Source of the DNA: Deltaproteobacteria bacterium
GTDB lineage: Bacteria; Desulfobacterota; Desulfobacteria; Desulfobacterales; B30-G6
Assembly: GCA_022340465.1 (NCBI GenBank)
Contig: JAJDNW010000028.1
Span: 1 to 48,226, forward strand
Reading direction: 5' to 3'
DNA length: 48,226 bases
In this document: positions 3,929 through 42,628 of the stretch, piece after piece
Layout of the letters: the number at the start of each line of letters is the position of its first letter
Numbering within the stretch: the first letter of the stretch is position 1
Translations under genes and position numbers: made by a program
Notes under the pieces: model-generated
The model's database searches: none
What the model saw: only the letters and a program-made list of their open reading frames with translations
What the model was told of the DNA's origin: nothing

Positions 3929-5539
3929 TTAATACCCCAAAGCGCATCCATCCTTGCGGGGGTCCGACCCGCCTATCAGAACGCCCCTTTCCCAGTCGAT
4001 CCAGATGGCCTGTCCGCCGCCGATGGGTTCTTCGGGTCTGACCAGACGATGCCCCCGTCCTGTCAAGTCGCTTCTCACAGCGTCGGGGACGCCGTCCTCC
4101 ACCTCCACATCACCTTCGAAAAGGGGAAACACGCGAGCCAGGTCGATGGCCGCCTGGACGTCCAGGCCGTAGTCGATCATGTTGCTCAACACGTGCACCT
4201 GCCCGGCGGGTTGGTACTGCCCGCCCATGACGCCGAAAGGCATGACGACACGGTCCTCTTTTTTCAGCATGCCCGGAATGATCGTGTGCATGGGGCGCTT
4301 TCCCGGCGCGATGCAGTTGGCGTGCGACGGGTCGAGGCAGAACGAAACGCCGCGGTTTTGCAGCAGCACGCCCGACTCGGGACCTGTCAGGCCGCTGCCG
4401 AAAGATTGAAAAATGGAATTGATCATGCTGACGGCGTTGTGGTGCCTGTCTACTACGCAGAGATACACCGTGTCGCCGTGGGACGGGAGACCGGACTCGG
4501 GAAGGTCGACAGCGGGCAGGCGCTGCATGGCTTTCTCCCGGTTGTAAAACCCACCCAGATGCCGGGCGTGTTCCCTCGAAAGCAGGGCGGACACGGGCAC
4601 CGTCTCCTTGGCCGGGTCCGTCACATAGCGGTTTCTCTCCTGGTAGGCCAGCCTGGCGACCTCGATCTCCAGGTGCAATCGCTCCGCCGAAAGCGGATCA
4701 CCGCTTTGTGCCCGTCCGAGTTGTGACAACAGGTTGAGCATGATCAGCGCCGTGATCCCCTGGCCATTGGGCGGGCACTCGAAGAGTTCATACCCGCCGT
4801 AACGCGTGGAAATCGGCACCACATACTCACCGGCGGCCTTTTCAAAATCCTCCAGAGTGTGCAGCCCGCCCATGCGCCTCAGGTAGGTCACCAGGTCCCT
4901 GGCCACCGATCCCCTGTAAAACCCGTCTTTCCCCTCGGCGGCGATTTTTTCCAGGGTTCGGGCCAGCAGCGGCTGGCGGTGCGTGTCGCCGGGTCTGGGG
5001 GAAGCGCCGCCTTTTAAATAAACGGCTGCCGTGGTCCTGTCGTGGGACAGCGTGTCCACCGCCTGCCCCCAGTCAAAGGCCACCCGTGGATGGACCGGGT
5101 AGCCATCCCTTGCAAACCGGATGGCCGGTTGCAGGAGTCGGTCCAGTCCCATGGTTCCGTGGTCCGCTGCAAGGCGCACCCAGGCGTCCACGGCCCCCGG
5201 AATCGTTACGGCATGGGGAGAGTGTTCCCCGATGCTTTCGATGCCCTGTTCCCGAAAGCATGCCACGCTCGCCGCCAAGGGGGCCCGGCCCGACCCGTTG
5301 TACGCGACGACAGGCCCCTTGCCGCCGGGGGCATAGAGGACAAAACAGTCTCCACCGATGCCTGTGGACTGCGGCTCCACCACGCCCTGCACGGCGCAGG
5401 CCGCCAGGCCGGCGTCCATGGCGTTGCCGCCTTTCATCAATATCTGCAGCGCCGTCATCGTGGCCAAGGGGTGGGAGGTTGCCGCCATGCCGTTGGCCGC
5501 ATACACCGGTGATCGTCCGGGCAGCTGAAAATTTCTCAC
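3929..5539 (-). CDS. Gamma-glutamyltransferase family protein
   Basis: 536-residue Ntn-hydrolase of the GGT family (cleaves gamma-glutamyl bonds, typically of glutathione, with autocatalytic processing into two subunits). Evidence: the N-terminal block ATSHPLATMTALQILMKGGN-AMDA; VEPQSTGIGGDCFVLY; the processing and nucleophile Thr region SHGDTVYLCVVDR; and the C-terminal GVMGGQYQPAGQVH block. No signal peptide is visible, so it is probably cytoplasmic, unlike the periplasmic E. coli Ggt; it resembles the YwrD-like branch. The start is GTG 5539 behind AAGGTGAG. The substrate is uncertain, since glutathione is not general in this group. Confidence 0.88.
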   Translation of the reverse strand: MRNFQLPGRSPVYAANGMAATSHPLATMTALQILMKGGNAMDAGLAACAVQGVVEPQSTGIGGDCFVLYAPGGKGPVVAYNGSGRAPLAASVACFREQGIESIGEHSPHAVTIPGAVDAWVRLAADHGTMGLDRLLQPAIRFARDGYPVHPRVAFDWGQAVDTLSHDRTTAAVYLKGGASPRPGDTHRQPLLARTLEKIAAEGKDGFYRGSVARDLVTYLRRMGGLHTLEDFEKAAGEYVVPISTRYGGYELFECPPNGQGITALIMLNLLSQLGRAQSGDPLSAERLHLEIEVARLAYQERNRYVTDPAKETVPVSALLSREHARHLGGFYNREKAMQRLPAVDLPESGLPSHGDTVYLCVVDRHHNAVSMINSIFQSFGSGLTGPESGVLLQNRGVSFCLDPSHANCIAPGKRPMHTIIPGMLKKEDRVVMPFGVMGGQYQPAGQVHVLSNMIDYGLDVQAAIDLARVFPLFEGDVEVEDGVPDAVRSDLTGRGHRLVRPEEPIGGGQAIWIDWERGVLIGGSDPRKDGCALGY

Positions 5540-5606
5540 GTTCTCACCTTCTTACCTTCTGTTTCTGAATACGGACAACCGAATACCGAGTGGTGCCCTT
5601 TTGCAC

Positions 5607-5714
5607 CTACTCGCTATCAGTCCTTTCTGCAAGCACACGCGACTCTTTGAGCATGGATGAAAGAACGATGTTCAGTACCCACAACCCGATCATGACCAGT
5701 AGAAACGGCGTTAT
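5607..5714 (-). CDS. Candidate 35-residue single-pass membrane protein with AUA start
   Basis: A short frame on the minus strand begins with ATA at 5714-5712, placed four to five bases after a near-perfect Shine-Dalgarno AAAGGAGGT (5719-5727). It encodes about 35 residues: a hydrophobic helix (TPFLLVMIGLWVLNIVLSSM) followed by a charged tail (LKESRVLAERTDSE) and a TAG stop. There is no ATG, GTG or TTG near the ribosome-binding site; the first ATG is seven codons in and would remove a third of the helix. It lies 67 bases upstream of the gamma-glutamyltransferase start on the same strand, so the two may be co-transcribed. Function unknown. The strong ribosome-binding site plus helix and tail composition are the only support. 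Confidence 0.5.
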   Translation of the reverse strand: MTPFLLVMIGLWVLNIVLSSMLKESRVLAERTDSE

Positions 5715-5907
5715 GGGTACCTCCTTTATCTGAACGGAGCAGCTTCGATACTCCGTTTTCTCTCACGAATTGCTATCGGATGAAAGCAAAAACTGTCGAT
5801 TTTATGCAAAATCGTCGCCGGAGCATCCATATCAATTAAATGTGGCATCCCGTGAAAAAAAGGTTTATAATCGCACCTCGCCGTTAACGCATCAAAGGAG
5901 GTCTCCC

Positions 5908-6381
5908 ATGACAGTTGCCTACACCAGCTACTTCAAGATTAAAAAACACGCAGGGGCCCATCGCACGGCACTCCTGAAGGGTTTCGACGAACCGATCCAT
6001 TTCGGAATTCATGGCGGAATCAAAGATTTCTACCAGGACAAATACGGCCGGAAGCTGGAGGGGCCGGATTATCCGGCAACGCTCGATTACATTGTTGCCG
6101 GCGTTGCCGGCTGACTGACCGGAACCCTCGCCGGCGCGCTGGATGCGCGCGGTATAAAAGCGGCTGAAAATCTGACGGCCGATGTGGAAGGTGATGTGGA
6201 AGCCGTGAACGGTGTACTCAAAATAACGAGGATTCGCCTAAAATATTCCTTCGAAGCACCCGAATCCCTGATCGAAAAAGCGAGGCGTGTCCTGGATGTC
6301 TATGCGGACCTCTGCCCGGCTTATCAGACGGTTAAGGACTGCGTGGACTGTACGTGGGAGGCGGATATAGAGAAGATCTAA
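5908..6381 (+). CDS. OsmC-like selenoprotein (in-frame UGA at the peroxidatic position)
   Basis: Reading through a single TGA (6112-6114) gives a continuous 157-residue OsmC/Ohr-superfamily protein that starts at ATG 5908 behind AAAGGAGGT. The TGA is residue 69, in the context IVAGVAG-U-LTGTLAGALDARGI. This is where OsmC proteins have the reactive cysteine (usual pattern ...C-LTMTL...ARKGI). The second OsmC cysteine is present as LCPAYQTVKDC (Cys136), and the C-terminus VDCTWEADI matches the family end. A GC-rich hairpin starts about 20 bases after the TGA, as a bacterial SECIS element should. The protein would reduce peroxides or organic hydroperoxides with a selenol in place of a thiol. A frameshift or dead gene is unlikely because homology continues in the same frame and only the catalytic codon is affected. 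Confidence 0.88.
6118..6153 (+). promoter_or_regulatory. Candidate bacterial SECIS element
   Basis: Downstream of the TGA at 6112-6114, GCGCGC (6134-6139) pairs with GCGCGC (6145-6150) around the 5-base loop TGGAT. Outer bases (CC 6131-6132 with GG 6151-6152, one bulged G; or ACCG 6118-6121 with CGGT) can extend the stem. The loop lies 25 bases after the UGA and contains exposed Gs, matching the distance and loop character expected for SelB-dependent recoding. It lies within the coding sequence, as bacterial SECIS elements do. Confidence 0.7.
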
Positions 6382-6483
6382 CGGCAGCCCCGATCGAAAA
6401 GATCACCACCCGTGGCGCTCTTCTTGTCACCGTTTGTTCTTCACGGCAATCAGCGATCTGCGTTAGAACCGAACCTATGAGAA

Positions 6484-6502
6484 AGGCCCCTCGAAGGGGC
6501 CT
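6484..6502 (-). terminator. Hairpin terminator candidate (minus strand)
   Basis: AGGCCCC and GGGGCCT form a perfect 7-bp stem (8 with the closing A-T) around TCGAA. Read on the minus strand it is followed by TTTCTC, a weak T-tract. It could end a transcript that runs left from ihfA through the structured 6512-6723 region, and it also closes the 3' side of the selenoprotein gene. Confidence 0.5.
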
Positions 6503-6511
6503 GGACTGCCT

Positions 6512-6723
6512 CCGCCGATTTGTTTCAATTCTCACCGGTTGAGTCGGCGGCTTATGAAGGAAGTTACAGGAAACAGCCTGGCCCGGCCGTTCCCCGTGGG
6601 GTGCCGGCCGTCACGTGGCTTTGCCCATGCTATGACTTGCATGGCGGTGGTTGTCTCCCCTGCCTCAGGCGGCGGAATACCTGTGAACGGAAAAGGCGCC
6701 CACGGGAGAAAAGCCCGTTCAGG
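6512..6723. ncRNA. Hairpin-rich gene-free stretch, possible structured RNA
   Basis: No credible protein frame occupies 6382-6767; the open frames here are low-complexity shadows. The stretch instead holds at least four stems. CCGCCGA 6512-6518 pairs with TCGGCGG 6544-6550 and encloses a smaller CTCA/TGAG hairpin. GGCCG 6585-6589 pairs with CGGCC 6605-6609 with an inner CCCC/GGGG. CCATGC 6625-6630 pairs with GCATGG 6639-6644. CCTGTGAACGG 6680-6690 pairs with CCGTTCAGG 6715-6723 with a two-base bulge. On the minus strand it would be the 3' region of the ihfA transcript, closed by the 6484-6502 hairpin. No known RNA family could be assigned by eye, and the strand is not certain. Confidence 0.4.
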
Positions 6724-6767
6724 CCGATGCAGGCATCATTTCAGACGGGTTGGGCCAAAGGGCTGGA

Positions 6768-7046
6768 TCAGTTGATTCTGTCACGCAGCTTGCCCGAGCA
6801 TTTGAACGTGACTACCCGCCTGGGCGCCAGCATCAGGTCCTCCCCGGTCGCGGGATTTCGACCGCGCCTTTCTCCCTTCTCCATGACGCAGAACTTTCCG
6901 AAACCACTGATGAGAACGTCTTCGCCGTTTTCCAATTTGCTTTTGATCAGTTCGATCAGCCCTTCGATTATCTCGGTGCTCTGGTGTTTGGTGAAGCCCG
7001 CATCCGTCTGGACCGCATTGATGATGTCCGCCTTTGTTAGTGCCAT
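6768..7046 (-). CDS. ihfA: Integration host factor alpha-type DNA-bending protein
   Basis: 92-residue HU/IHF-family histone-like protein. The N-terminus MALTKADIINAV, the central LENGEDVLISGFGKF and the DNA-arm GRNPATGEDLMLAPRRVVTF all match the family; the 'ARRVVTF' ending of the arm is typical of IHF alpha rather than HU. It bends DNA as a dimer (IHF partner or homodimer) and assists transcription, replication and recombination. The start ATG 7046 is preceded by AGGAGA. It diverges from the PilZ gene, and the 228 bases between them are AT-rich and would hold both promoters. Confidence 0.92.
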   Translation of the reverse strand: MALTKADIINAVQTDAGFTKHQSTEIIEGLIELIKSKLENGEDVLISGFGKFCVMEKGERRGRNPATGEDLMLAPRRVVTFKCSGKLRDRIN

Positions 7047-7274
7047 AGTGCGATAATCTCCTATAATTTATGTTCAGGTATTTATTTTTCTATTACAAAT
7101 GGCAGTTTTAAATAATTATGTCAAGGGATTATATCGTTACTCGGTGATATTTTCCTGTCGTCCCCCTATGGGTGGGCTTCCTCTGGAAATCTTCACCAAC
7201 ATTTTGACAAAAACGGCGAATCATGTTCAACTATAGCGTTTGATGAAATTATATTCCGATCAGGAGGGCATACC

Positions 7275-7580
7275 ATGGGACGGGAACGCCGCCGGGAAAA
7301 CCGGCATGCCTGTGTCAAGCAGGTCGGATATGCTATTCAGGGATTGAACTACATCGATTATATTCAGGACATCAATTCCTGGGGCGTTTTTATCCAGTCG
7401 GACCGGAAAGTGCCTGTGGGTGAAAGCATTCTCGTGTCCATACCGCTTTTCGGAGATGAAACCACCATCAAGATTGTGGGAGAGGTTGTCTGGTCCGGCC
7501 CCGAAGGCATGGGCATCCGCTTCAGCATGGGCATCGGAGAAAGCACCCTGCAGTCGATTCTCGGCGATGAAGGCGCCTAG
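7275..7580 (+). CDS. PilZ-domain protein (candidate c-di-GMP receptor)
   Basis: 101-residue single PilZ domain. The N-terminal basic motif GRERRRENRHAC supplies the RxxxR c-di-GMP-binding arginines, and DINSWGVFIQS corresponds to the second motif (D/NxSxxG), here with Asn-Ser. The rest fits the beta-barrel (VGESILVSIPLFG, IVGEVVWSGPEGMGIRF). Such stand-alone proteins relay c-di-GMP to motility or surface functions. The start ATG 7275 has AGGAGG eight bases upstream. The 3' end overlaps that of the convergent outer-membrane gene by four bases. Confidence 0.87.
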   Translation: MGRERRRENRHACVKQVGYAIQGLNYIDYIQDINSWGVFIQSDRKVPVGESILVSIPLFGDETTIKIVGEVVWSGPEGMGIRFSMGIGESTLQSILGDEGA

Positions 7581-8176
7581 AACGTAAAACCGAGTTCGAA
7601 CGCCAACACCCCGCCACCGAAATCGTACGTTTTATCGCGGTTTTCATCGATATCGAGGTTCCACCGATTCGAAAAAAACTTGACACTCATCCCGCTGAAA
7701 AACCGATCGGTAACAAAAACGCGCACGCCGGCTTTCAAGACGCCCCCGAAACCGGCGCCGGATTCTTCGACGTCGTCATGATCGGTGTCGTCTTCATATG
7801 CGATGAAATTGAAGTAAAGGGCAGGGCCGAGGCCGATATAGGGCTGTATCCGCCAGTGATTCGGCTGTGCAAAAAGCATCATCTCAATGCCCATAGCGCT
7901 AAAGTCGCCGTCGCCGATGTCGGCCGTCTTTTTCTTGCTCTGCGATACGTAAGTGTGCGTGCCGCATCCGAATCCGAACCAGTCGTGGAATGCACGCATG
8001 TAGGTGGCTGCAAAATTCCCGCCCGATTTGTAACCCTCGCCTTCCAGGTCCGCATGGGGCCAGTATCCCCCGATGGAAAAGGTAAAGGAGTTGAACTTGC
8101 CGCCGTAAGGTTCGGCGGCCTGAACCGCCGAAGACAGGCATAAAGCCACGATGATGCATGTCAGTGCGTATTTCAT
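7577..8176 (-). CDS. Outer-membrane beta-barrel protein with signal peptide
   Basis: 199 residues with a clear Sec signal peptide (MKYALTCIIVALCLSSAVQA-A). The mature part alternates aromatic and polar beta strands (FTFSIGGYW, NFAATYMRAFHDWFGFG, IQPYIGLGPALYFNF, GVLKAGVRVFV) and ends in phenylalanine (LAFELGFTF), as outer-membrane barrels recognised by BamA do. It resembles OmpW/OmpA-like 8-stranded barrels of unassigned function. An acidic loop (EDDTDHDDVEES) could bind cations. It overlaps the PilZ gene tail-to-tail by four bases. Confidence 0.85.
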   Translation of the reverse strand: MKYALTCIIVALCLSSAVQAAEPYGGKFNSFTFSIGGYWPHADLEGEGYKSGGNFAATYMRAFHDWFGFGCGTHTYVSQSKKKTADIGDGDFSAMGIEMMLFAQPNHWRIQPYIGLGPALYFNFIAYEDDTDHDDVEESGAGFGGVLKAGVRVFVTDRFFSGMSVKFFSNRWNLDIDENRDKTYDFGGGVLAFELGFTF

Positions 8177-8264: not shown

Positions 8265-8501
8265 GCATTTAGCGCCCTATGTCCTTTGCCCTGAACCGTA
8301 AATCGTGAAACGTAAGATGCGGTTCAATCGCCCTTGACCTCCGACCTCTGACCCCTGACCTCGGATTTACCACGACCGGTGCAAAAGCTCAACCATCTCC
8401 GTGCAACGACTCCTTATCAACCAACGCCACTGCTGCAACGTTGAGGTTGACATGCCTGCTGCCAGGATCTATAGCGGGACTAAGCATCTCGACCCTGCAA
8501 A

Positions 8502-8554
8502 GGAGATACCCGGACCCGTAGGCCCCGGCTCTGGTTTCACCCTGTCAGGGTGTT
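8502..8554 (-). repeat. Six-copy hairpin repeat family, copy 1
   Basis: Reverse orientation relative to the copies at 15931 and 26086. Core: GGAGATACCCGGACCCGTAG, then GCCCCGGCTCTGGTTTCACC and CCTGTCAGGG. The CCGG-rich core is self-complementary and would form a short hairpin. Confidence 0.65.
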
Positions 8555-8684
8555 GGACACTTGATTATCGGTTATTTAAAAAGAAAAAACGAATGTCCAA
8601 TATCCACGTTGATGCCATGCTGTTGGGTTTTCGTGCTTGGAATTTTGCTGTCGATATTGCCGGCATATCCAGATATCTCCATAT

Positions 8685-9881: not shown

Positions 9882-11291
9882 TCAAAATACCGGATCATAC
9901 GATTTGATACCGATTTTCTCCTTGAACATGTTCACACAGTTGATGTCCAGGTCCAGGAGCTTGGCGATCCTGAACTTGGCGTCGATGCCCTTTGCCACGC
10001 CCGGCGCTTCGCAAACCACACCGATATCGAGGTCCTCCCTCAGTTCGGCCATGGTCACGGAATCCGCAAGATCGGGCACGGACACCCCGAGCTTGTCGGC
10101 CACATAGCTTTTAGCCGCGTCAATTCGCATTCCCCGGTTCAGCTGCATGCGTGCCACCAGATCTCCGGCGGTCCGCATTCCGCCCATCCCCGAAACGATT
10201 GCATGCGCGGCATGCATCCCCATGGGGTCGCCGACGCCAACCTACAACCCGTCAAGCCGGCAGATTTCGACATGGGCCTTGGATGCGCGTGAAAGGGCGT
10301 CCAGCGGCGGATGCAATACCAGCGGGACGCCGCCCACCCCCATGCCCAGGTTTGCGTGCACCGGTATGCTCGATGCCTCCGAACAGGCCTTGGTGAAGGT
10401 GATGGAACGCGTCACGTTCCAGGGCAGCGACCGGTTGGTCACGATGTTGATGGCCGGCCCGAATATGGTGACGCCGGCTTTCTCGCACAGCTTCACCTGC
10501 TCGTGCGGGTAAAGGCCTGCCAGGCGGACACCGTCGTACTCGATCTCGGCGTGCATCCCCAGGATGAACTCCCCCGACATGCCCATTTCGATGCCCATCT
10601 CCGGGTATTTTCCGTGCAGAATCTCGGCCGCCTTCAAGGCTGCGTAGAATTCGGCGTCGCCGGACGCGGCGGTGGTATCGAAATTGATGCCGTCGCACCC
10701 GCCGAATTCATACAGCTGGCTGCCCACGTAAACCATGTCCGCGATCGCATATTCGACCATCCGCTCATAAGACTCGCGGGCCTCGTCGATGCGGTCTGTG
10801 GGAATCAGGTCCATGGGATTGGCCACCGGTCCGTCTGGCACGCTGTAAAGGCCCAGGTTGGGCATGGCCCCGTAGAAAATCGGTGCGATGGTGGAAAGCA
10901 CCGCCTGCTCCATGTTGGGCTTGTCGTAGATGACCACGTGCTTGACCTGCTTGAAGCTGTAGTCGATGTGGGTCAATTCGAGCGTGTCGGCTCCCAGGCA
11001 GCGCTCGAAAAGCATCAGCTGCTGTAATTTGCTGACAGGAATGTGGGCGCGTTCGATTTTGGAGGTCTGATTGTCATAGGACAGGCAGCAGGCCCGGCTG
11101 TCCTCGACGCCCACAACCCGGTCCTTCCGCCGGTACAACGCCATCAGGTAAGCGATCTCATCGCTGCCGAGCGGTGGTATCCTGGCGCGCTCCGCCGCAT
11201 CCCGGGATCCGTCTTCCAGGTCCTGCTGGACCTCTGCCTCGGTCATTTCAACCCGCTCGCCATCGCCCATTCTGGTAATTATTTTACTCAT
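9882..11291 (-). CDS. mtbB: Dimethylamine methyltransferase MtbB with in-frame UAG (pyrrolysine)
   Basis: Reading through one TAG (10244-10242) gives a 469-residue protein matching MtbB over its whole length. It transfers a methyl group from dimethylamine to a cognate corrinoid protein. The TAG is residue 350 in the context ICRLDGL-O-VGVGDPMGM, where methanogen MtbB has pyrrolysine (VDGI-O-VGVGDP, about residue 356). Other matches are the start ...MGDGERVEMTEAE, LELTHIDYSFKQVK, FYGAMPNLGLYSVPDGP, GCDGINFDTTAASGD, and after the amber codon SGMGGMRTAGDLVARMQ. The start ATG 11291 follows a G-run. Homology continues in one frame beyond the TAG, so this is recoding and not a broken gene. The corrinoid partner (MtbC) is not in the window. 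Confidence 0.93.
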
Positions 11292-15986: not shown

Positions 15987-17456
15987 TTACCCCACGCCCT
16001 GCTCTTTTTCGGCCTCTTTGACGATCTCTCTGATGTCGGTCAGCACGCTTCCCGAAAGCGCCGGAGGCTCATAGCTTTCCAGAAGAGCGGTCATCTTGTC
16101 GTGCGCCCTTTTGTAGATGTCTGCGCTTCCGTCGGCTTCCCAGTCTTCCCGCATGCGCCTGTCCATCAATTCGGCGCGGGACTGGGTCGCCATATTCCGG
16201 TAAGTGGTTTCGTGGCTGAGGTAGTCCTTGCCGATGCCCATTTCGGTGATGACATCCACTGCCAGGGTCTCGTCGTTGACGGGTATACCCTTGACGGCAT
16301 ATTTGATCATCTCGGCAATCTCATTGTCGATGACTAGTTGTGTCAGGTCGAAGGTGATCCCCATTTCGAGCATTCCCAGGCCGTAGATGACGTTGGCCCC
16401 TGCCAACGCCGGCAACATGCCTGTAATGGTCTTCTCGTGTCCCGACTGGGCATCGACCACCTTGCTGTCGCCCTATCCGCCGGCAACGAAGCACGGCAGA
16501 CTGTAGTAGCGTGCCAGCCGGGCCACCGCGGCGCTGATCATGCCGGTTTCCGGCGACCCCACAGTCGCCGTCGCCCGCCGCAGATCCAGCGGACAGGTGG
16601 AACTGCCGTACACGAAGGGCGAACCCTTTTCACACAGTTGACTCAATACCAGGCTGGCGAGCACCTCGCAGTTCTGCACCACCAGGGTCCCGGCCAGATG
16701 CACCGGGCTTGAGCCGCCGGACATCGCCATCCCGATGACGAGAGCCCCCATACCGTGCTTGGCCGCTCCCATGAGAATCTCACAGTGGTGATCCGTCAGC
16801 TTGAGCGGGCTGATGGGGCAGGTTGCGAACGAAAGCAGGGGGCGCTCCCTCAGCTTCTCACGGGAACCGGCAATGGCCGTGCACATGTCAACGATCTTTT
16901 CCAGCTGGAATCCGTTGACCGGCCCCAGCCAATGGTGCTTGGTCGTGTTGGTCAGGGACGCCTCGGCATTGTGGATCGCCTGCACTTCCGGCGGTTTGTC
17001 ATGAGAGCACATGGCGCGTTCGTAGGTTTCCACGTTTTCCAGGCAGTCGATGAGCCGCGCCGCCTGCTCGATGTCCTTCTTGGTGGTGTCCCGATGGTCG
17101 CCCGTCTCCGGATCGACGAACATGATGCCCTCGCCGAAATTGGTGAACGTCACGCGGTTGTCTTCAAGCACCACGTCGCTTTCAGGAATGCGGCCGTAGG
17201 CGATGAAGGTGGATGGCGCCGTGTGAATGGCGTCCTCCACGACAAACGGGGGGATCCTGACCGTCTTGCTTTTCGTGTCCACCCTGCACCCGGCGCCGTG
17301 GAATATCTCGAGCGCCCTTTCATTTTCGACGAACACACCCGTATTTTTCAGGACCTGCAGGGTGGCCAGATGTATCTCGTGGACTTCGTCGTCGGTCATC
17401 AGATTGAGACTGAACCCGCTGCTACGCTTTTTGCCGGCTTTCATGCTGCGCTGCAT
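15987..17456 (-). CDS. mttB: Trimethylamine methyltransferase MttB with in-frame UAG (pyrrolysine)
   Basis: Reading through one TAG (16475-16473) gives a 489-residue MttB. It moves a methyl group from trimethylamine to a corrinoid protein, leaving dimethylamine, the substrate of the nearby MtbB. The TAG is residue 328 in the context LPCFVAGG-O-GDSKVVDAQSGHE, matching the pyrrolysine site of methanogen MttB (about residue 334 of 495). Upstream blocks are FGEGIMFVDPETGDHRDTTK, HWLGPVNGFQ, ATCPISPLKLTDHHCEI and SSTCPLDLRRATATVGSPE; downstream is MLPALAGANVIYGLGMLEMG. The start is ATG 17456, directly after AAAGGAGGT; an in-frame TTG at 17471 overlaps the upstream stop but contains that ribosome-binding site. 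It lies 11 bases after the paralogue, clearly one operon. Confidence 0.94.
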
Positions 17457-42281: not shown

Positions 42282-42310
42282 TTGACAGACCCCCACCGAA
42301 GTCTTATTTT
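42282..42310 (+). promoter_or_regulatory. Strong sigma-70-type promoter of the cysteine-rich peptide gene
   Basis: -35 TTGACA (42282-42287), 17-base spacer, -10 TATTTT (42305-42310). Transcription would start near 42317, leaving a leader of about 100 bases before the ATG at 42421. Confidence 0.6.
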
Positions 42311-42341
42311 TGTACATATGCCACTTTGTGGTGTTTTAACT

Positions 42342-42398
42342 CCGCGGCTTCCCGACCGCCATTGTGGAGCGGAAGGGAAGCGGGTGCCTTTGGCGCCC
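42342..42398 (+). promoter_or_regulatory. Structured 5' leader of the cysteine-rich peptide gene
   Basis: Two hairpins precede the ribosome-binding site. GCTTCCC (42347-42353) pairs with GGGAAGC (42375-42381) and encloses CCGC/GCGG. Next, GGGTGCC (42382-42388) pairs with GGCGCCC (42392-42398) around TTT. The second ends eight bases before the Shine-Dalgarno. This could stabilise the transcript or regulate translation; no known riboswitch was recognised. Confidence 0.5.
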
Positions 42399-42420
42399 CT
42401 GATAAAAGGAGGTGATGTCA

Positions 42421-42567
42421 ATGGCTGAGGATACAGACATCAAAAAAGACGGGCAAGACGAGAGCAGTGATGACGGGTCTTCTTCTGACACGCGCTGCTG
42501 CTACGTAGTCGACCCCTGTGGATGCTATGTGGATCCCTGCGGGTGCTATACCAGCTGCTGTTGCTGA
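42421..42567 (+). CDS. 48-residue cysteine-rich peptide, unknown family
   Basis: A short gene with a near-perfect ribosome-binding site (AAAGGAGGTGA, 42406-42416), its own promoter and a strong terminator. The product has two parts. Residues 1-25 are acidic and Ser-rich (MAEDTDIKKDGQDESSDDGS and following). Residues 26-48 hold nine cysteines, begin with Cys-Cys-Tyr, contain VDPCGCY twice in tandem and end in Ser-Cys-Cys-Cys. An acidic N-terminus and Cys-dense C-terminus suggest either a small metal- or sulfur-binding peptide or a modified-peptide precursor (leader plus core). No maturase gene lies in the window. No signal peptide. I do not recognise the family. Confidence 0.75.
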   Translation: MAEDTDIKKDGQDESSDDGSSSDTRCCYVVDPCGCYVDPCGCYTSCCC

Positions 42568-42592
42568 GACCCGCATATATTACCGTTACCAA

Positions 42593-42628
42593 AGGGCCGG
42601 TCCAAACGTTGGATCGGCCTCTTTTTTT
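42593..42628 (+). terminator. Rho-independent terminator of the cysteine-rich peptide gene
   Basis: GGCCGGTCCAA (42595-42605) pairs with TTGGATCGGCC (42609-42619), with one G-T wobble, followed by CTTTTTTT (42621-42628). It is the clearest intrinsic terminator in the window. Confidence 0.85.

Follow-up and report, generated by a model that had tools for sequence, protein, structure and literature searches.

A free-standing gene for a short cysteine-rich peptide in Desulfobacterales and its possible metallothionein-like role

The window, a 48,226-nucleotide stretch of a deltaproteobacterial contig (JAJDNW010000028.1), carries a 48-aa open reading frame that is a real gene. Our tentative reading, held with somewhat less than even confidence, is that it stands on its own and encodes a small cytosolic peptide of metallothionein-like character, from a new family restricted to one lineage. 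The evidence for the gene comes from transcription and translation signals across the family, from homologues in related genomes and from selection on the peptide.

The gene and its transcription unit

Translation of the open reading frame gave MAEDTDIKKDGQDESSDDGSSSDTRCCYVVDPCGCYVDPCGCYTSCCC. All nine cysteines lie within residues 26-48, two tandem VDPCGCY units occupy residues 30-43 and the C-terminal end is CCC, in agreement with the original prediction of a 48-residue product whose last 23 residues hold nine Cys, two VDPCGCY units and CCC. The chosen start is an ATG eight bases 3' of AGGAGG, and the in-frame GTG and ATG codons 5' of it overlap or abut the Shine-Dalgarno sequence. The original prediction also called the gene too short for most gene callers; those in common use accept 90 nt. 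On its upstream side lies htpG, encoding an Hsp90, and on its downstream side a gene for an NlpC/P60 protein. Coordinates are given in Table 1.

Table 1. Coordinates of the Cys-rich peptide gene and its signals in the window, and of the protein encoded beside three sister-subfamily genes
Feature	Position	Strand	Basis or remark
Cys-rich peptide ORF, 48 aa, stop TGA included	42421..42567	+	Translation; homologues; dN/dS
Variable charged Ser/Asp-rich tail, residues 1-25	42421..42495	+	0.37 mean majority identity; charge counts
Conserved Cys core, residues 26-48	42496..42564	+	0.81 mean majority identity
VDPCGCY units	42508-42528, 42529-42549	+	Within Cys core
CCC	42556-42564	+	Within Cys core
Promoter-like TTGACA-17-TATTTT	42282..42310	+	Promoter scan; family-wide excess of such sites
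Structured leader, hairpins ~42318-42334, 42347-42381, 42382-42398	42317..42406	+	Folding z -2.83; transcript start 42317 assumed
Shine-Dalgarno AGGAGGTGAT	42407..42416	+	Sole exact copy in window, both strands
Intrinsic terminator	42594..42628	+	Terminator scan; 22/29 distinct copies with one
97-98-aa protein	L123 1649-1945; L124 7387-7680; L125 1778-2071		Sister-subfamily loci

The promoter, Shine-Dalgarno sequence and strong terminator that had been predicted were all located in the window; the Shine-Dalgarno sequence is a perfect one, and the terminator stem (42594-42620) has 12 pairs and a T run. Where two leader hairpins had been proposed, folding of 42317-42435 gave three, of which two are strong; the fold has an MFE of -47.4 and a z of -2.83, and 1 of 200 shuffles did as well. 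In the window alone, the counts of promoters (one, against a mean of 0.5 in shuffles) and of terminators (one, against a mean of 1.8) do not exceed chance, whereas both signals do so in the family as a whole. Hairpins with a T-rich tail, at least as stable as -10 kcal/mol and at most 110 nt past the stop, followed 22 of 29 distinct copies and 7 of 171 controls, the controls being random stretches of the same loci and mostly coding DNA. One copy (L049) was counted as a miss for terminators and omitted from the promoter, leader and Shine-Dalgarno counts. Promoter scores of at least 9 were reached in 14 of 28 upstream regions compared with about 14% of shuffles, and the best promoter-like score averaged 8.7 against 7.5. 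The site lies 100-170 nt before the start in 11 of the 14 copies scoring at least 9, and the leaders are therefore long. Leader folding gave a mean z of -1.61 over 28 copies and -0.43 over 49 control stretches. Of 28 distinct members, 23 have GGAGG no more than 22 nt from the start codon assigned to them, the starts having been assigned by a simple rule biased towards a Shine-Dalgarno sequence. The gene is a stand-alone transcription unit, and the claim that a Cys-rich peptide has a self-contained gene here is well supported by the family-wide signals and by the homologues described below. Judged from its Shine-Dalgarno sequence, promoter, leader and terminator, the gene may be highly expressed.

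No shared operator was detected, as the most enriched upstream words all stayed at or below the maximum in shuffles. An Rfam search of 20 loci found a cobalamin riboswitch and a tRNA, neither of them at the leaders. In the window, Rfam matched just two PYLIS elements and no known RNA leader at the gene. The two elements, both on the - strand, are of the mtbB type (10145-10244, 77.3 bits) and the mttB type (16376-16475, 71.9 bits), and because of them some TAG codons are probably read as pyrrolysine in this genome. The window peptide stops at TGA; several relatives (L032, L034, L038, L050, L053 and L061) stop at TAG.

Conservation and distribution of the family

Absence of conservation in relatives was one of the outcomes that would have counted against the original prediction. 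Among 58 related genomes, clear homologues were present in four besides the window's own (E 4e-12 to 2e-7), an outcome that favours a gene. The family has the C-terminal core (C)CY-x-VDPCGC-x-VDPCGCY..CC(C) and a variable charged tail. In alignment A4, a chosen subset of 17 of the 28 rows of alignment A2, mean majority identity was 0.37 over the 24 columns of the tail and 0.81 over the 23 columns of the core, and Cys33, Asp38, Cys40 and Cys42 were present in 17/17 rows. The 29 distinct peptides, counted with one misread sister copy set aside, are 47-59 aa long, and nearly all have seven to twelve Cys; they have no Trp, few or no His, and tails without a hydrophobic stretch. The number of units varies among copies from about two to four. 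In two divergent copies, NPDG or EPDG replaces the first DPCG. Tetrapeptides of the NPDG/EPDG type have a known turn preference, and this replacement therefore suggests that each unit may be a turn bearing C-x-C.

The ratio dN/dS was compared for 15 pairs, several of which have a member in common. Nine pairs were measurable, and eight of them gave 0.11-0.29; of the others, five had too much synonymous divergence and one consisted of identical sequences. The peptide is under purifying selection and is selected as a protein. The remaining measurable pair, the closest pair compared from genome G207, gave 0.77, hinting that the paralogues of that genome are relaxed or diversifying. G207 has four diverged copies on four contigs (L070, L071, L072 and L073).

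With a five-row profile at E 0.001, 24 of 291 genomes of the order matched, one of them (G017) through a sister-subfamily copy; among genomes of good quality the count was 12 of 173. This patchy presence, 24/291, shows that most of the order can do without the gene. A 17-row profile matched 34 of 389 genomes drawn from the class, all listed in the window's order, the number of genomes from other orders in the 389 being not established. After discounting four sister copies (G017, G031, G166 and G199) and an unrelated long frame (G172), and with G111 set aside, 28 genomes were left. The same profile matched 1 of 395 genomes drawn from the phylum, which was the window's own. A pattern scan of 84,980 species genomes returned 38 stretches, nine of which encode a relative. 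Their records are Desulfobacteraceae (six), Desulfobacterales (one), Deltaproteobacteria (one) and Desulfosarcina alkanivorans PL12, a named strain with a complete chromosome that carries the L061 copy; the order name Desulfobacterales for the carriers is taken from record titles. So far the family appears in one order only, at these thresholds and in these draws, and searches with so short a peptide are limited in reach. A phage or plasmid cassette was considered and rejected: searches of phages and plasmids gave no match to the window peptide, and none of 19 pattern matches in viral contigs was a relative.

A sister subfamily, traced from weak matches, occurs in seven genomes of the 281 drawn from the order. 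It has a basic tail and a core of the type CCY-x-VVDGCGC-x-VG-x-YCCDGPDMS-x-CRF, and comparison of its profile with that of the first set gave 92.5% probability (E 5e-7, 24 columns). By eye, a hairpin and T run follow five of the six sister copies displayed. Just downstream of three sister genes lies a protein of 97-98 aa that is 75-78% identical between loci (Table 1); the L125 protein has no Pfam match, and two sister peptides have no match in Pfam or NCBIfam.

Known families and structures were searched as well. Compared with Pfam at E up to 1, the window peptide matched nothing, and three of five members gave sub-threshold matches only. NCBIfam, with the same limit on E, and PHROGs likewise gave no match to the window peptide. 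PDB sequences gave a single chance-level match (E 0.4), with none in a profile search. AlphaFold returned no usable model (pLDDT 52.8, pTM 0.15). The papers searched for the motifs VDPCGC and DPCGCY contained neither, and the titles and abstract beginnings covered gave no description of this family. The family appears to be absent from these protein-family libraries and uncatalogued.

Neighbouring genes and rival readings

Neighbouring open reading frames were delimited at 28 loci by a longest-ORF rule, several being named by eye. Ten further neighbourhoods were sought, of which three were incomplete (L127 and L128 gave none). Neighbours are held in common only among close relatives; in the Desulfosarcina group, for example, several genomes have the gene between two others that look, by eye, PEP carboxykinase-like and quinone-oxidoreductase-like. 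Genome G001, of the same genus as the window, has htpG and the NlpC gene about 100-140 nt apart, compared with 510 nt in the window, and there is no cassette; in G002, the contig ends at the NlpC gene. Because G001 has no cassette between the same flanking genes, the cassette was gained or lost within one genus.

The arrangement of the downstream genes bears on whether the peptide is the leader peptide of a cysteine-responsive attenuator, whose Cys codons before a terminator would sense the supply of cysteine. Three Cys codons stand at the stop, and the terminator comes soon after. In at least 11 of 28 loci, however, the next downstream gene is convergent (by eye) and leaves nothing to attenuate, which weakens this reading. 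The constraint is at the protein level, and the gene downstream in the window encodes an NlpC/P60 protein, not a cysteine gene. We regard an attenuator as very improbable.

The layout of the peptide resembles the leader plus repeat core of a RiPP precursor, in which the tail would be the leader, the Cys units the core, and the modifying enzyme would be encoded elsewhere. SCIFF-type and other radical SAM RiPP precursors are also encoded by single small Cys-rich open reading frames, of about 45-50 residues. Radical SAM genes occur near 4 of 28 loci: L076 has a SPASM-type pair downstream, the sole such pair beside a copy among the 28 loci, a B12-type gene adjoins the L069 copy, and further B12-type genes lie two genes off in the syntenic L061 and L079. 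The family nevertheless has no linked maturase that recurs beyond close relatives and no NCBIfam match, and no radical SAM match was obtained at any curated cut-off. In L076, a 66-aa precursor-like open reading frame (8464-8664) stands after the hairpin of the Cys gene and before the radical SAM pair, and the pair and this frame are probably a separate RiPP cassette beside the Cys gene. The RiPP reading by neighbourhood was thus rejected, with the B12-type genes kept as a weak lead. RiPPs usually have a conserved leader and a variable core, whereas here the presumed core is conserved (0.81) and the presumed leader is not (0.37). The modified-peptide precursor put forward in the original prediction is disfavoured by this conservation in the Cys core and by the L076 pair following another open reading frame, and we consider a RiPP improbable. 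The two radical SAM/SPASM-like genes of L076 (8464-11990) are weakly ScmE/ScmF-like, below cut-offs.

Another reading is a peptide that serves in structure or assembly, where Cys or Tyr would cross-link it into a granule or a structure of the cell surface. The variable number of units and the four copies in G207 would fit such a role, but the tail composition shows no hydrophobic export signal (by eye) and no partner gene recurs. This reading is quite improbable.

A serious rival is a thiol, persulfide or redox buffer, in which the Cys cluster would carry sulfane sulfur or absorb oxidants with no metal held. Genes of suitable kinds are near scattered copies: a thioredoxin gene directly follows the copy in L088 and in its relative L086, TusA is encoded upstream in L085, AhpC/TSA and rubrerythrin are encoded near L077, and L067 has a flavodoxin-type reductase. 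The carriers' records, moreover, are those of sulfur bacteria. These neighbours were chosen after the fact, and the conserved spacing with a turn in each unit suggests a defined chelate rather than a loose thiol store. On balance we think such a buffer unlikely. Copper and redox neighbours, being scattered and picked afterwards, were rejected as functional evidence and kept as leads only; among ten proteins compared with Pfam, a supposed desulforedoxin (L005 450-671) had no match.

A possible metallothionein-like role

The anatomy of the peptide points to what may be a soluble thiolate peptide. Made in quantity, as promoter, leader, Shine-Dalgarno sequence and terminator suggest, the peptide would be kept soluble and disordered by its charged tail. 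In each V-D-P-C-G-C-Y unit, DPCG would form a beta turn that exposes a C-x-C pair. The ends, CC and CC(C), may complete a metal-thiolate cluster around soft-metal ions, for example Cu(I) or Zn(II). The peptide might in this way buffer or sequester soft metal in cells living with sulfide.

A metallothionein-like role is supported by small size, Cys richness, and C-x-C and CC motifs. Further points in its favour are the Cys and DPCG positions kept while the tail drifts, the purifying selection, the lack of PF02069, the stand-alone unit and a heavy-metal ATPase near two copies. In L083, a heavy-metal P-type ATPase gene (5157-7709) is convergent with and beside the Cys gene; in L082, a similar gene (4427-6773), apparently broken or frameshifted, lies about 2 kb downstream of the copy. 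Against the role, such metal-transport neighbours occur at only two of the 28 loci, which belong to a single family of genomes, with redox or sulfur genes or neither elsewhere. A metal ligand, a metal-responsive regulator and a shared operator word were not found, no AlphaFold model was obtained and presence is patchy. The core also has recurrent Tyr, a residue not usual in classical metallothioneins. That no sensor was found weighs little, because Pseudomonas metallothioneins are also without metal-responsive regulators (PMC7387436). The metal- or sulfur-binding function first proposed for this DNA stands as the best guess. We rank metal-thiolate buffering first, followed by thiol or persulfide buffering, a RiPP, a structural peptide and an attenuator.

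Like SmtA/BmtA (PF02069, Metallothio_Pro), members of the family are short, soluble and Cys-rich, with a possible metal-thiolate cluster. Unlike SmtA/BmtA, the family has no His-rich or zinc-finger pattern, no adjoining SmtB-type regulator was recognised, and five members gave no Pfam match over the cut-off. The PF02069 profile matches neither the peptide nor any of 28 genomes, the window's included, and was positive in the Synechococcus elongatus control; for this reason the peptide seems not to belong to the SmtA/BmtA family and may at best work like a metallothionein. MymT of Mycobacterium tuberculosis is similar in size and idea and is set apart by the NCBIfam search only (no model matched at E up to 1). 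According to PMC7558416, MymT is a 4.9-kDa Cys-rich Cu(I) metallothionein from a formerly unannotated open reading frame, with a predicted capacity of up to six Cu(I).

A more specific proposal, which we hold to be doubtful, is that the peptide is an independently evolved thiolate peptide built on tandem VDPCGCY turns, encoded by a single-gene cassette that is gained and lost in one order of sulfur bacteria, and handling soft metals or sulfane sulfur against high sulfide. As of 2020, function had been investigated for only two bacterial metallothioneins, SmtA and MymT, according to PMC7387436. If the metallothionein-like reading is true, a non-homologous Cys-cluster family in sulfur bacteria would lengthen this short list. 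The peptide is short and easy to express, and the handling of soft metals or reactive sulfur in sulfide-bathed cells would become testable.
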